A DNA stretch of 32,118 bases from Spirochaetales bacterium (lineage in GTDB: Bacteria; Spirochaetota; Spirochaetia; SZUA-6; JAFGRV01). The notes under the pieces were generated by a model. That model ran no database searches. It saw only the letters and a program-made list of their open reading frames with translations, and was not told the origin of the DNA. Shown here piece after piece: positions 362 to 32,118 of the stretch. The stretch spans positions 1 through 32,118 of the forward strand of contig JAFGWI010000017.1 in the NCBI GenBank assembly GCA_016937215.1, in the 5' to 3' direction. Positions within the stretch are counted from its first letter, which is position 1, and every line of letters begins with the position of its first letter. The position numbers and the translations under genes are program-made.

Positions 362-555
362 AAACAAATCTCCAGCAGAAAGTATGCCACAATCGATTAT
401 TATCGTCAAATGAAGGTTGTGAATGGTTATGTTAATGTGATGCGTTTTTCAGAGAATGTTTTGCCATAATAACAGCAGTATGATCCACGACGATGGAGCA
501 GTGATTCCCGGCAACAGGCTTATTGCTTTATAATACAAGGGCCCTTTGTCCCGTG

Positions 556-671
556 TTAGGGATAGGAGGCATGGCAGACCATTTTTTCAAAAATGGTCTG
601 CCAAAGCGTTTTTGCCGGGACTTTTTCCCGGCAAAAACCTTCGGAGGCCATAGCCGGAGTGCCGGGCCTGG
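556..671 (+). repeat. Two-hairpin dispersed repeat, copy A
   Basis: This is a member of the repeat family described in the findings. It begins TTAGGGATAGGAGGCAT. Hairpin 1 is a perfect 14-bp palindrome with arms 573-586 (GGCAGACCATTTTT) and 589-602. A spacer AAAGCG follows, then hairpin 2 with 11-bp arms 609-619 (TTTTTGCCGGG) and 627-637 around a 7-nt loop. The tail is CCTTCGGAGGC and then a GCCGGGCCTGG box. The tail is more diverged than in copies B, C and D, which share GCAAAGCCCGGCC or a close variant. It lies between the divergent radical SAM gene and the sugar operon. The rest of 362-886 contains no gene; a TATAAT at 529-534 lacks a convincing -35. Confidence 0.85.
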
Positions 672-718
672 TCACAAATCTTCGATTTGCTGCTCGGCCA
701 TGCAGCCTAATAGCCCGG

Positions 719-802
719 CCCCTGGAATGGTTTTGGAATCGGGCCCATAAGCCGGGGTTTTACCGGCTTCACGACTCCCCTATTCCCGGCTCATTCCAGG
801 GG
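719..802. repeat. Extra inverted repeat next to repeat copy A
   Basis: CCCCTGGAATG at 719-729 is the exact reverse complement of CATTCCAGGGG at 792-802. Inside it sits a second inverted repeat, AAGCCGG at 749-755 with CCGGCTT at 763-769. The other four copies of the dispersed repeat do not have this module, so it may be a separate element or an extended end of copy A. It ends about 85 bp before the ATG of the dehydratase gene. Confidence 0.55.
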
Positions 803-886
803 TAACACCCAAAAATTGAAAAAAAATTCAAATCATCTTGTCTATCGTTGACAGCTGGCCATGGTCAGAGTACAATATCTGGAACT

Positions 887-10086: not shown

Positions 10087-11454
10087 ATGATGAAAAAGCT
10101 GATTTTATGTATAATATTATTTCTTATGACAGCAGGGCTATTTGCCATGAACACCCCCTGGCTGCACACCGAAGGCAACAAAATCAAGGACCCAGGCGGC
10201 AAGGATGTGATTCTAAGGGGGATTTCCTGGATTTCACTCTATGTAACAGCCTATCGCATTGGTCCGCGTGTTAATTATTTTCCCCATGAAGATGAAAGCG
10301 ATGAACAAAAGGCCAATCTCAAGGCCATGATCGATCTGATGACCAGTGAAGGCGAAGACGGCTGGAACGCGAGGATCATCCGTATGCCTGTTTACCCAAA
10401 GCAAATTGATGATGATCCCGGCTGGCTCACGCTTTCGACTCGCGAGCGCTACAATGAATTAATCACCACGGCTGTTGATTACGCAACAGAAAAAGGCATT
10501 TATGTGATTCTGGACTGGCATTATGTGGATGATTACGGCGACAAAGTCGATAAAACCCGGGAATTCTGGGATTGGGCCGTTCCTCAATTCAAAGATTATT
10601 CCAATGTGCTCTTTGAAATCTATAATGAACCCATCGACTTTGAATACATCCATGATCCGGCAGCCCGTAGCTACTCATGGTCCACCTGGAAAAATACATT
10701 GGCCCAACCTATTGTTGACAGAATCCGCGGTCACCATGGGGCCGCTAACCTGATTCTGGTAGGCGGACCAGCCTGGTGCCAACGCATGTATGGCGCCAAT
10801 GCCGACCCCATTTCAGCTGAAAATATAGTCTATGTGACACACATCTATCCCTATCACTGGGACCATCCCGGAGACGGCCTTGTTCACGGTGACATGACCA
10901 ATTATCTGGGCAACCTGGCAGAGAATTATCCTGTGTTTTTCTCGGAATGGGGTTTTCAGGATGGAGGCGCCATTCCCTGCGATGGGGAGGATGAAGATGA
11001 ATACGCGGCCGGCATGATGGATTTGCTGAATAAAGGCGGGCATTCCTGGACCATGTGGTGCTTTGACCCCTGGTGGGAACCCATTGCCTGGGGAAACTGG
11101 CAATATACCGATTTGCTCGGTTCATCCCTGCCAAATACCGGCGGCTATCACGGACAATTCATGAAGGATTTTCTATTCGAAAAACGGAACAGCGATTTAC
11201 CCGGTAACTCAGAACCAAGCGTAACTCCTGAGATAACACCAACACACGCGCCAGGAGTAAAGGGAGATGTTAATGGCGACAACAATGTCAACATCGTGGA
11301 CGCCCTTTTAATCGCGCAATTCTATGTAAAAATCATTCCCCAGGGCTTTGTTGAATCCCAGGCTGATGTTGACTGTTCCGGTAAAATCGATATTGTTGAC
11401 GCGCTACAGGTCGCTCGTTTTTATGTGAAGCTGATTGACACTCTGGATTGCTGA
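10087..11454 (+). CDS. Secreted GH5 glycoside hydrolase with C-terminal dockerin
   Basis: This 455-residue protein starts with a signal peptide (MMKKLILCIILFLMTAGLFA). The GH5 catalytic domain runs from about 23 to 375: RGISW at 44-48, IRMPVYP near 98-104, the general acid/base E181 in FEIYNEP, HIYPYHW at 252-258, and the nucleophile E287 in FFSEWGF. A Thr/Pro/Ser linker (380-393) leads to a dockerin type I module with two calcium-binding F-hand repeats, GDVNGDNNVNIVDALLIAQF and ADVDCSGKIDIVDALQVARF. GH5 enzymes of this form are mostly endo-beta-1,4-glucanases or mannanases acting outside the cell. The dockerin would bind a cohesin on a scaffold or surface protein; none is in the window. It is a single-gene unit, divergent from the RiPP maturase operon. 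Confidence 0.93.
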   Translation: MMKKLILCIILFLMTAGLFAMNTPWLHTEGNKIKDPGGKDVILRGISWISLYVTAYRIGPRVNYFPHEDESDEQKANLKAMIDLMTSEGEDGWNARIIRMPVYPKQIDDDPGWLTLSTRERYNELITTAVDYATEKGIYVILDWHYVDDYGDKVDKTREFWDWAVPQFKDYSNVLFEIYNEPIDFEYIHDPAARSYSWSTWKNTLAQPIVDRIRGHHGAANLILVGGPAWCQRMYGANADPISAENIVYVTHIYPYHWDHPGDGLVHGDMTNYLGNLAENYPVFFSEWGFQDGGAIPCDGEDEDEYAAGMMDLLNKGGHSWTMWCFDPWWEPIAWGNWQYTDLLGSSLPNTGGYHGQFMKDFLFEKRNSDLPGNSEPSVTPEITPTHAPGVKGDVNGDNNVNIVDALLIAQFYVKIIPQGFVESQADVDCSGKIDIVDALQVARFYVKLIDTLDC

Positions 11455-15707: not shown

Positions 15708-15879
15708 CATATGGCTTTTTTTCAGTTAAAAATAGGGATTCACCATGATCTGATGCTAAAAATCCTAAGCCCTATTAGGGGGGAGGCCAGAGCCTGAGTC
15801 AAAGCCAACCGGGTTTCATATAAACAGGGGTTTTAACGGTGTCGGTTAATATGAAGCCGGCTTTCACGATTTTCATGCG

Positions 15880-16000
15880 TTAGGGATTGGAGGGGAGGAC
15901 AAGGCTTTTTTAAAAGCCGCAGGCCGAAGTTTTTGGCCGCGTTTTCAGCGGCCAAAAACTTTGAAGCCGGGAGGCGGAACCCCATAAAGCCCGGCCTGCC
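15880..16000 (+). repeat. Two-hairpin dispersed repeat, copy B
   Basis: This copy begins TTAGGGATTGGAG. Hairpin 2 is perfect: 11-bp arms TTTTTGGCCGC (930-940 of the 15 kb block, i.e. 15930-15940) and 15948-15958, loop 7 nt. Hairpin 1 (15897-15925) is partly decayed: only GGCTTTT/AAAAGCC and the outer GG/CC remain paired. The tail ends ATAAAGCCCGGCCTGCC, close to the tails of copies C and D. It lies between the convergent nth and the cyclic-nucleotide-domain gene. Confidence 0.8.
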
Positions 16001-16101
16001 AAAGCTGCTTGAGACAACAAATGGCTGACTTCCAAGGGCCAAAGCCTTATTCAAGCCTTTGGCAGGCAACGCCCAAATATCCCTTAAATGGCGGCATTCT
16101 G

Positions 16102-21622: not shown

Positions 21623-21795
21623 TTAAATCAGGTTTATCAAGGATAATAAAGAATTGAAATACTCCTATGAGTGCTTACTAAAATTTGCCTAGAAAAGATG
21701 TGGGCGTTGCCTGCCTCCGCTTCATTTAAAACAGCTATTCTCCGATTAAGCGTGAATAAAGAATAACCTCCACCTACCAAACATGGCCATGGGTC

Positions 21796-21918
21796 GGCAG
21801 GCCGGGCTTTGCGCCCCTCCGCTCGCGCTTCGAAGCTTTTTTCCGGGAAACTATCCCGGAAAAAAGGCTTTGGCAACCAGGTTTTGAAAAACCTGGTTGC
21901 CAGGGCTCCAATCCCTAA
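21796..21918 (-). repeat. Two-hairpin dispersed repeat, copy C
   Basis: This copy is on the minus strand: TTAGGGATTGGAG starts at 21918 and reads leftward. Hairpin 1 has perfect 14-bp arms 21872-21885 (GGCAACCAGGTTTT as written) and 21888-21901. Hairpin 2 has 12-bp arms 21837-21848 (TTTTTTCCGGGA) and 21854-21865 with a 5-nt loop. The tail carries GGCGCAAAGCCCGGCCTGCC in repeat orientation. It lies just upstream of the small gene at 21932 and is read through in that gene's frame. The remainder of 21623-21795 holds no gene. Confidence 0.85.
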
Positions 21919-21931
21919 CGCGAAAATACAG

Positions 21932-26532: not shown

Positions 26533-26586
26533 AGTGAATGCCAATGAGCATTCACGACAAATAGTGAATGCCAATGAGCATTCACG
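26533..26586. repeat. Tandem pair of identical hairpins
   Basis: The 24-nt unit AGTGAATGCCAATGAGCATT plus CACG occurs at 26533-26556 and again at 26563-26586, a period of 30 bp. Each unit holds a perfect 8-bp stem, GTGAATGC with GCATTCAC, around CAATGA. A third, shorter stem AAATGC/GCATTT (26600-26605 and 26609-26614) follows. These sit between the flavoprotein gene and the convergent P83/100 gene. Two units are too few for a CRISPR array. Confidence 0.7.
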
Positions 26587-26610
26587 CCACCGAGCAGTAA
26601 ATGCGGAGCA

Positions 26611-26670
26611 TTTTTGACCAGCACAAAAAACCTTTGAAGGCAGGAGCCGGAGCAAGGAAAATCCGGCCTG
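26611..26670 (+). repeat. Possible decayed copy (F) of the two-hairpin repeat
   Basis: TTTTTG at 26611-26616 and CAAAAA at 26624-26629 form a short stem with the family's usual 7-nt loop, followed by ACCTTTGAAGGC and then a GC-rich AGGAGCCGGAGC...ATCCGGCCTGAAAGC stretch like the tail of copies A and B. The TTAGGGAT box and hairpin 1 are missing, so the assignment is tentative. Confidence 0.35.
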
Positions 26671-26697
26671 AAAGCCCCAGGCTTATCAAGCAAGGCC

Positions 26698-28502: not shown

Positions 28503-28685
28503 TCAGGGGTCAAGTTTTCGACCATTTCCTGAAAAAAAACTTGTATCTTGTCCCTGCTAATAAGATAGCCAAGGTTTTTCAGGAAACTATCACAGAAAAG
28601 TAAAAGAAATGTAAAATTATTTTGACAAGTGGAAACGAGGATTCAATAATGAAAATTTTGGCTGTTGCCCCCTCCGCTTCGCTCC

Positions 28686-28808
28686 GGCGGGCCGGGCTTT
28701 GCGCCACGCCGCTTACGCTCTGAAGGTTTTTGGGCTGAAATTGTCAGCCCAAAAACGCTTTGGAACCCTGTTTTTGAAAAAACAGGGTTCCATGGCTCCA
28801 ATCCCTAA
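28686..28808 (-). repeat. Two-hairpin dispersed repeat, copy D
   Basis: This copy is on the minus strand and starts TTAGGGATTGGAG at 28808. Hairpin 1 has perfect 14-bp arms 28762-28775 (GGAACCCTGTTTTT) and 28778-28791. Hairpin 2 has 12-bp arms 28727-28738 (TTTTTGGGCTGA) and 28744-28755 with a 5-nt loop. The tail in repeat orientation contains GGCGCAAAGCCCGGCC. It lies between the trpB stop and the P83/100 leader, both on the minus strand. Confidence 0.85.
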
Positions 28809-28881
28809 CAGGGTATAAAACCCTGGACCGAATCACCATTTTTCATTTTATCAGGTCATTTGAAATCAAAGCTTATTACCA

Positions 28882-31850: not shown

Positions 31851-32031
31851 AAATGCTAATTTATCCAAAGTTTGGTAAAAATTCAAGCTGGCAAAGAGGC
31901 ATTTCTCGGCAATCTTCTGAAAATTTTCCATGAACCTCACACATGTCATAAAGCGAGATTCCCAGGGAGAGGGCTTTAACAAGCTGAAAAATCGTACTTG
32001 TTTAGATAAATTTCAATTCGCGATAAAGGCC

Positions 32032-32118
32032 TTAGGGATAGGAGGCATGGCTTGCCATTTTTTCAAAAATGGCAAGCCAAAGCGTTTTTTACCGGATTAT
32101 TTCCGGTAAAAAACCTTC
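32032..32118 (+). repeat. Two-hairpin dispersed repeat, copy E (cut by window edge)
   Basis: This copy begins TTAGGGATAGGAGGCATGG, the same box as copy A. Hairpin 1 has perfect 14-bp arms 32049-32062 (GGCTTGCCATTTTT) and 32065-32078, then AAAGCG. Hairpin 2 has 11-bp arms 32085-32095 (TTTTTTACCGG) and 32103-32113, 7-nt loop. The tail CCTTC continues past the window. Against copy A, both arms of each stem have changed together, keeping all pairs. Confidence 0.85.

Follow-up and report, generated by a model that had tools for sequence, protein, structure and literature searches.

The window analysed here is the whole 32,118-nt stretch of contig JAFGWI010000017.1 from a Spirochaetales bacterium, and it carries several copies of one dispersed repeat. 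The first-pass annotation had listed five copies, in both orientations and all starting with TTAGGGAT(A/T)GGAG, and each of these was found at the position given; a probable, degenerate sixth half-copy had been overlooked. The features are listed below with their scores against models R1, which was built from this genome's copies, and R2, a second spirochaete model.

About 553..808, plus strand: copy A, complete, GTG-TTAGGG ... GGTAACAC-CC, with a long fourth arm and paired ends (R1 97.9 bits; R2 551-812)
669-697: insert in copy A, the small repeat TGGTCACAAATCTTCGATTTGCTGCTCGG, separating hairpin 3 from the closing stem (from the sequence)
15877..16072, plus strand: copy B, complete, imperfect hairpin-1 subtype, ends GCG / CGC (R1 74.3 bits; R2 60.7 bits)
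21704..21921, minus strand: copy C, complete, long fourth arm, ends GCG / CGC (R1 128.7 bits; R2 74.9 bits)
About 26537..26697, plus strand: probable remnant, the 3' half of a sixth copy (weak: R1 9.9 bits, E 0.43; from the sequence)
28662..28811, minus strand: copy D, complete and uninterrupted, ends CTG / CAG (R1 157.4 bits; a DNA-parameter fold pairs the ends)
28666..28695, minus strand: variable fourth arm in copy D, flanked by CCC and AAN'N'N' (read off the sequence)
31994: degenerate 5' shell end GTACTTGTTTAGA, by copy E
32029..32118, plus strand: copy E, of which the contig end leaves just the 5' part (R1 95.7 bits, 3' truncated)

The probable remnant holds two GAATGCCAATGAGCATTC palindromes, a hairpin-3-like AAGGCAGGAGCCGGAG and a fourth-arm-like tail. 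Copy B belongs to the same family, as had been proposed, but its hairpin subtype differs and is less perfect (74 bits, against 96-157 in the others). Among its genes, the window has a family-5 cellulase that bears a type I dockerin domain (10087-11454), which suggests a cellulosome-like system in a spirochaete, and a Borrelia P83/100 gene, which together with the relatives described below points to a spirochaete.

The repeat is present in about 260 copies in the genome, beyond the extent first described. This was seen with the 13-mer TTAGGGATWGGAG, which has 260 occurrences in the draft (5.09 Mb in 335 contigs) as compared with one for its reversed control. Eighty-four stretches were fetched around the listed sites and 86 distinct copies were compared. 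The 5' boundary of the element lies 3 nt before TTAGGG, and at its 3' boundary stand AA and the reverse complement of the first three bases, with CC next; with these bounds it measures about 135-260 nt, and the unit of 115-120 nt described earlier was too small. Many contigs of this genome, the 3' end of the window included, terminate within an element. The element thus breaks the draft assembly, and the real copy number is probably above the count. The arm tips of some copies hold other small dispersed repeats. One of these, GTGAATGCCAATGAGCATTCAC with its variants, is palindromic, often tandem and sits within arms of the element (five loci); in the window it lies at 26536-26583 and belongs to the remnant. 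A third repeat, TGGTCACAAATCTTCGATTTGCTGCTCGG, separates hairpin 3 from the closing stem in copy A and in copies at other loci, four of which we recorded.

Our comparison has shown that a conserved branched fold defines the element, with paired ends NNNTT/AAN'N'N', a GGG/CCC stem, single pairs amid conserved G-A mismatches, and variable arms. Read along the top strand, the 5' part is N1N2N3-TT-A-GGG-A-T-W-GGA-G-xxx, followed by hairpin 1 (14 pairs, TTCA loop); the middle consists of AAGC, hairpin 2 (13 pairs), CTT and hairpin 3 (C-GRA-GC-loop-GC-GRA-G); and the 3' part is x'x'x'-C-GNA-W'-A-G-CCC, hairpin 4, whose length is very variable, and AA-N3'N2'N1'-CC. The two-hairpin unit of the first-pass annotation is instead a closed four-arm fold in which hairpins 1 and 2 are only two of the arms: GGAGxxx forms a stem with x'x'x'C close to the 3' end, GGG pairs with CCC, and a small third hairpin and the variable fourth arm complete it. 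The shared start TTAGGGAT(A/T) was read correctly, except that its A/T is not free variation but one side of the base pair W-W' (TA in 56 copies, AT in 20, CG in 2, with one exception).

The earlier claim that pairing rather than sequence is maintained has held up well. Among 26 uninterrupted copies, 96.6% of cells were paired, compared with 77.4% after shuffling, a percentage biased towards a single copy because the structure was drawn from that copy; double changes are much less affected. Both sides had changed in 33 of 49 pairs, the covariation score was 0.503 versus 0.133, and none of 500 shuffles reached the observed values. Shifting one arm by 1-3 bases abolished the covariation signal. 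The three terminal bases of each element end also pair and covary; copy D, for example, has CTG / CAG as a compensated variant of GCG / CGC. When the 3' end was located without reference to N1-N3, it complemented them exactly in 32 of 42 copies, where shuffling gave 15.9 on average and 22 at most. Among 42 copies preselected for complementary ends, folding without constraints under DNA parameters paired the ends of 41, with a mean z of -6.5. The top strand folded better than the bottom strand in 40 of the 42, and the G-A and GNNA loops are present on the top strand only.

Relatives were sought by running R1 on 393 Spirochaetota genomes, and matches were obtained in 80 of them, from 27 genera but mostly from one family, probably the Treponemataceae. 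Copy number among relatives spans a few to hundreds; in six single-contig genomes it is far lower than here (6-25), and 42 copies from these genomes, aligned by their fit to R1, have double changes in 45 of the 49 pairs. In another spirochaete class, genome G029 carries the element in minimal form, as TTAGGGATTGAAGCG...AGCGAAAAGCCCGACC...GGAACGC. In loci of two T. denticola-like genomes (L091, L092), copies are clustered on one strand beside fragments of RHS-repeat protein genes, and there the GGG/CCC stem has become GCG/CGC and TT/AA has become AC/GT.

A family already catalogued as RNA shares part of this fold. Flavo-1 (Rfam RF01705) was described as a candidate RNA (Weinberg et al. 2010, PMC2864571) and has the Rfam type sRNA gene. 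The window copies had no Rfam match at the gathering score nor up to an E of 10, RF01705 included, and R2 did not match ordinary Flavo-1 sites when run on 40 Flavobacteriia loci. The motif TTAGCCCCGATNGAAGCGGCATC, a Bacteroidetes repeat, is assigned by Rfam to Flavo-1; it was found in at least 116 stretches from Flavobacterium, Chryseobacterium, Kaistella, Pedobacter and others. At the position equivalent to W-W', the Flavo-1 pair N-N' covaries four ways (AT 35, TA 35, GC 29 and CG 7 of 113). Matches to RF01705 numbered 86 in G029 and 36-103 in each of four Bacteroidota genomes, with none in 14 control genomes. Two copies bridge the families: L148, from G029, scored 30.8 bits with R1 and 58.1 bits with RF01705, and a Flavobacterium copy (L197:3600-3700) scored 38.9 bits with R2 and 52.0 bits with RF01705. 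A match to a known Rfam family, which had been named as evidence against the original description, is therefore absent from the window copies and present in bridging copies of other genomes.

The likeness to Flavo-1 consists of a GATNG(A/G)AG...N'AG core that holds the same base pair, a central hairpin, dispersed copies that number tens to hundreds and lie on both strands, and bridging copies that fit both models; this fold core is common to two phyla, Spirochaetota and Bacteroidota. In contrast, the window copies have hairpins 1-3 where Flavo-1 has one central hairpin, GGG/CCC in place of CCC/GGG in the stem, and additional paired, covarying ends and a fourth arm that are left out of the Rfam model. 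The bridging copies show the repeat to be a new, expanded branch related to the Flavo-1 family; since the window copies lack an RF01705 match and R2 lacks matches to ordinary Flavo-1 sites, we do not class it as a member of RF01705.

Part of the copies have moved inside a transposon-like shell. The outer motif GTATTTGTTTAGC (213 occurrences in the genome, none for its control) is found in some copies as inverted ends, at a distance of roughly 25-40 nt from the core. Both of these shell ends are present in 21 of 87 testable copies, and neither is present in 44. Duplications of 8 bp, matching at 6/8 or better, flank 11 of the 21 both-ended copies, five of them exactly (shuffled mean 2.3, maximum 8 in 2000), and no target duplication was found at copies without shell ends. 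This shows that a subset was transposed inside a MITE shell. The earlier suggestion of a non-autonomous REP/MITE-like element fits this subset, with its GTATTTGTTTAGC ends and 8-bp duplications, but the shell is incomplete or missing in most of the tested copies, and classical REPs are a different kind of repeat. No autonomous parent with GTATTTGTTTAGC ends was seen in the fetched loci of this draft assembly, which breaks at repeats. For IS66, considered as a candidate parent of the shell, only one end fragment was present and by eye no end matched.

Orthologous sites in Flavobacterium show that the copies are not only many and dispersed but are gained or lost. One site, not picked for conservation, was followed in 61 genomes of the genus, with 30 loci fetched. 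It is occupied in many species, by elements whose hairpins are quite different yet paired. Six loci have no recognisable element there, one has an inverted element, another an inverted and degraded one, and three have remnants. At other orthologous sites both bases of the N-N' pair change together from one species to another, and two loci (L237, L221) show mismatched states; the loci at these sites were all found via the motif and so show persistence but not its rate.

With respect to the working form of the element, G-T makes up 1.3-2% of its paired cells, and outside arm 4 the ratio of G-T to A-C is 14:6 (alignment A1). In 19 tRNAs of the same loci G-T amounted to 8.9%, of which only the share is comparable because the program brackets standard pairs only. 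There is one G-U in the 113 N-N' cells of Flavobacteriia. GNRA loops of RNA require a purine at the third position. In the GNNA loops of hairpin 3 this position is a pyrimidine 36 times and a purine 10 times, counts that are not independent since the copies share descent. In DNA, d(cGNNAg) is reportedly a stable tetraloop class, and d(GCGAAGC) is a very stable mini-hairpin. Relative to codirectional genes, 21 copies are sense and 19 antisense in this genome, and the ratio is 25:46 in Flavobacteriia. Taken together, the few G-U pairs, the pyrimidine-containing GNNA loops, the confinement of the loops to the better-folding top strand, the lack of a sense excess and the published transcriptome discussed below suggest a better fit to folded DNA than to RNA, with none of them decisive alone; the low G-T can also stem from exchange between copies.

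With this in mind, the explanation that we favour, at a probability of about 0.4, is a dispersed element on an expanded Flavo-1 branch whose top strand folds as single-stranded DNA and is recognised by its shape by a putative trans-acting enzyme. The top strand would become single-stranded during replication, repair or DNA uptake and would then fold. A protein provided in trans would recognise the folded strand by shape, by analogy with integron attC sites and the ends of IS200/IS605, and this recognition would serve to copy, move or maintain the element. Pairing would therefore be under selection, leaving the arm sequences free to change by mutation and inter-copy exchange. In this genome the subset in MITE shells has additionally been moved, with 8-bp target duplications, by a putative transposase. 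A lagging-strand mechanism would predict a replication-strand bias; GC skew in four Treponema-like and two Flavobacteriia genomes gave opposite tendencies and none that was consistent, which weakens the DNA reading. The absence of Y1/RAYT from many element-bearing genomes and of target duplications at shell-less copies also counts against it. It is a more tentative proposal, possible but doubtful, that Flavo-1 is not an RNA but the first recognised member of a class of structure-addressed single-stranded DNA elements, present in Bacteroidota and Spirochaetota at tens to hundreds of copies per genome and maintained or moved by a putative enzyme that reads fold rather than sequence.

Several rival explanations must be weighed against folded DNA. 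A structured non-coding RNA, as in Rfam, would be transcribed and act through its RNA fold, be it in regulation, in 3'-end protection or as a dispersed sRNA. The first-pass annotation had named a family of structured RNAs among its possibilities, and this is upheld insofar as the relatives are filed as Flavo-1 RNA. Strong covariation also speaks for it. Further, the copies lie about 40 nt past stop codons, which makes read-through transcription likely for many of them. Some Flavo-1 copies also overlap 5' transcribed regions in a published transcriptome, but the same data placed Flavo-1 sense or antisense alike and often outside transcripts (PMC9723704). The scarcity of G-U, loops that are not of the GNRA kind, the lack of sense bias towards neighbouring genes, and the lack of a conserved promoter-like sequence upstream of copies without a shell likewise argue against RNA as the working form, and we regard this explanation as unlikely, though it is a serious contender. 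Marginally less likely is passive cargo, a functionless MITE/REP-like repeat that transposases spread in trans, with template switching at hairpins and inter-copy exchange keeping its arms paired. It would account for the shell and duplications of the subset, for central hairpins that are wholly different yet paired at one orthologous site, for other repeats nested in arm tips, and for the few G-T or A-C intermediates. Template switching gives no account, however, of the isolated W-W' and N-N' pairs that covary between conserved mismatches, nor of the mismatch intermediates at L237 and L221; moreover, shell-less copies retain the fold and its core is common to two phyla. On balance we consider cargo improbable.

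The remaining candidates are weaker still. A host architectural site would be a cruciform or hairpin landmark to which a factor for nucleoid structure, supercoiling or transcription boundaries binds. Intergenic placement near stop codons, in either orientation, and persistence at orthologous places across species would suit such a site, but the gene-pair context of the copies is the same as the background, relatives have anywhere between a few copies and hundreds, and sites are freely lost. We judge it quite improbable, and its variant as a transcription insulator, raised earlier, finds no support in the background-like context or in the orientations of the copies, which follow no rule in this genome. 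The least probable explanation in our estimate is a REP-type system mobilised by Y1 proteins of the RAYT kind. The search for a RAYT that had been recommended did reveal two related genes with RAYT-like motifs in this genome, each encoding 159 aa and starting MRKPRQKG (L115 1471-1950 and L116 1387-1866). One has an element copy 300 bp downstream, on one side only, and the GGAG/GTAG/GAAG before the hairpin is REP-like. The second has no copy within 1.4 kb, however, and REP arms are conserved in sequence where those of the element are not. The presence of Y1/RAYT also fails to track the element, as neither is found in many element-bearing genomes: among 393 Spirochaetota genomes 80 have the element, 164 have Y1 and 19 have both (odds ratio 0.36, a statistic that ignores phylogeny), and one genome (G276) has 25 copies and no Y1. 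Dependence on a RAYT is thus not supported.

The element was also compared with known systems. It resembles MITEs of bacterial DDE transposons in the GTATTTGTTTAGC inverted ends and 8-bp target duplications of a subset, but both ends are missing from 44 of the 87 testable copies, and nothing in a MITE calls for a conserved fold. High copy number, intergenic location and hairpins after GGAG/GTAG recall REP/BIME with RAYT, whereas the element has no RAYT association, its arms vary with compensation, and its size is five to ten times greater. Integron attC sites share a terminal stem and variable loop, and they too are recognised by single-strand fold and not by sequence. They carry R'' RYYYAAC at the 5' end and R' GTTRRRY at the 3' end in a head-to-tail array (PMC3607928), in contrast to the GTT 5' and AAC 3' of the element. 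An attC identity was rejected on this reversed box order and on the occurrence of copies in both orientations, with kilobases of ordinary genes between them and no cassette array. HEARO / IscB omega-RNA is similar in having many dispersed copies of a structured element per genome, but no such Rfam match was obtained and the copies inspected showed no nuclease ORF.

Flavo-1 was catalogued as an RNA in 2010 and no function has since been found, nor did a 2021 F. psychrophilum transcriptome give any clue to one. The spirochaete branch reveals the complete element, with paired ends and four arms, links two phyla and offers a large set of copies, accompanied by orthologous sites in Flavobacterium, some occupied, some empty and some with the element inverted. 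Should the DNA reading be true, a family in an RNA database has been misfiled and an enzyme that reads DNA shape is left to find; if it is false, the covariation set makes the RNA hypothesis directly testable.

A literature search with the repeat sequences returned only unrelated primers. Phage and plasmid homologues of one window copy and one Flavobacterium copy were sought, and none was found except for one short, weak plasmid match. Among viral contigs, one match (L424) lies inside a coding sequence and is due to chance, and another (L425:10850-10933) is a real-looking element of the same family on an IMG/VR contig that is filed as viral and may be prophage or host DNA.
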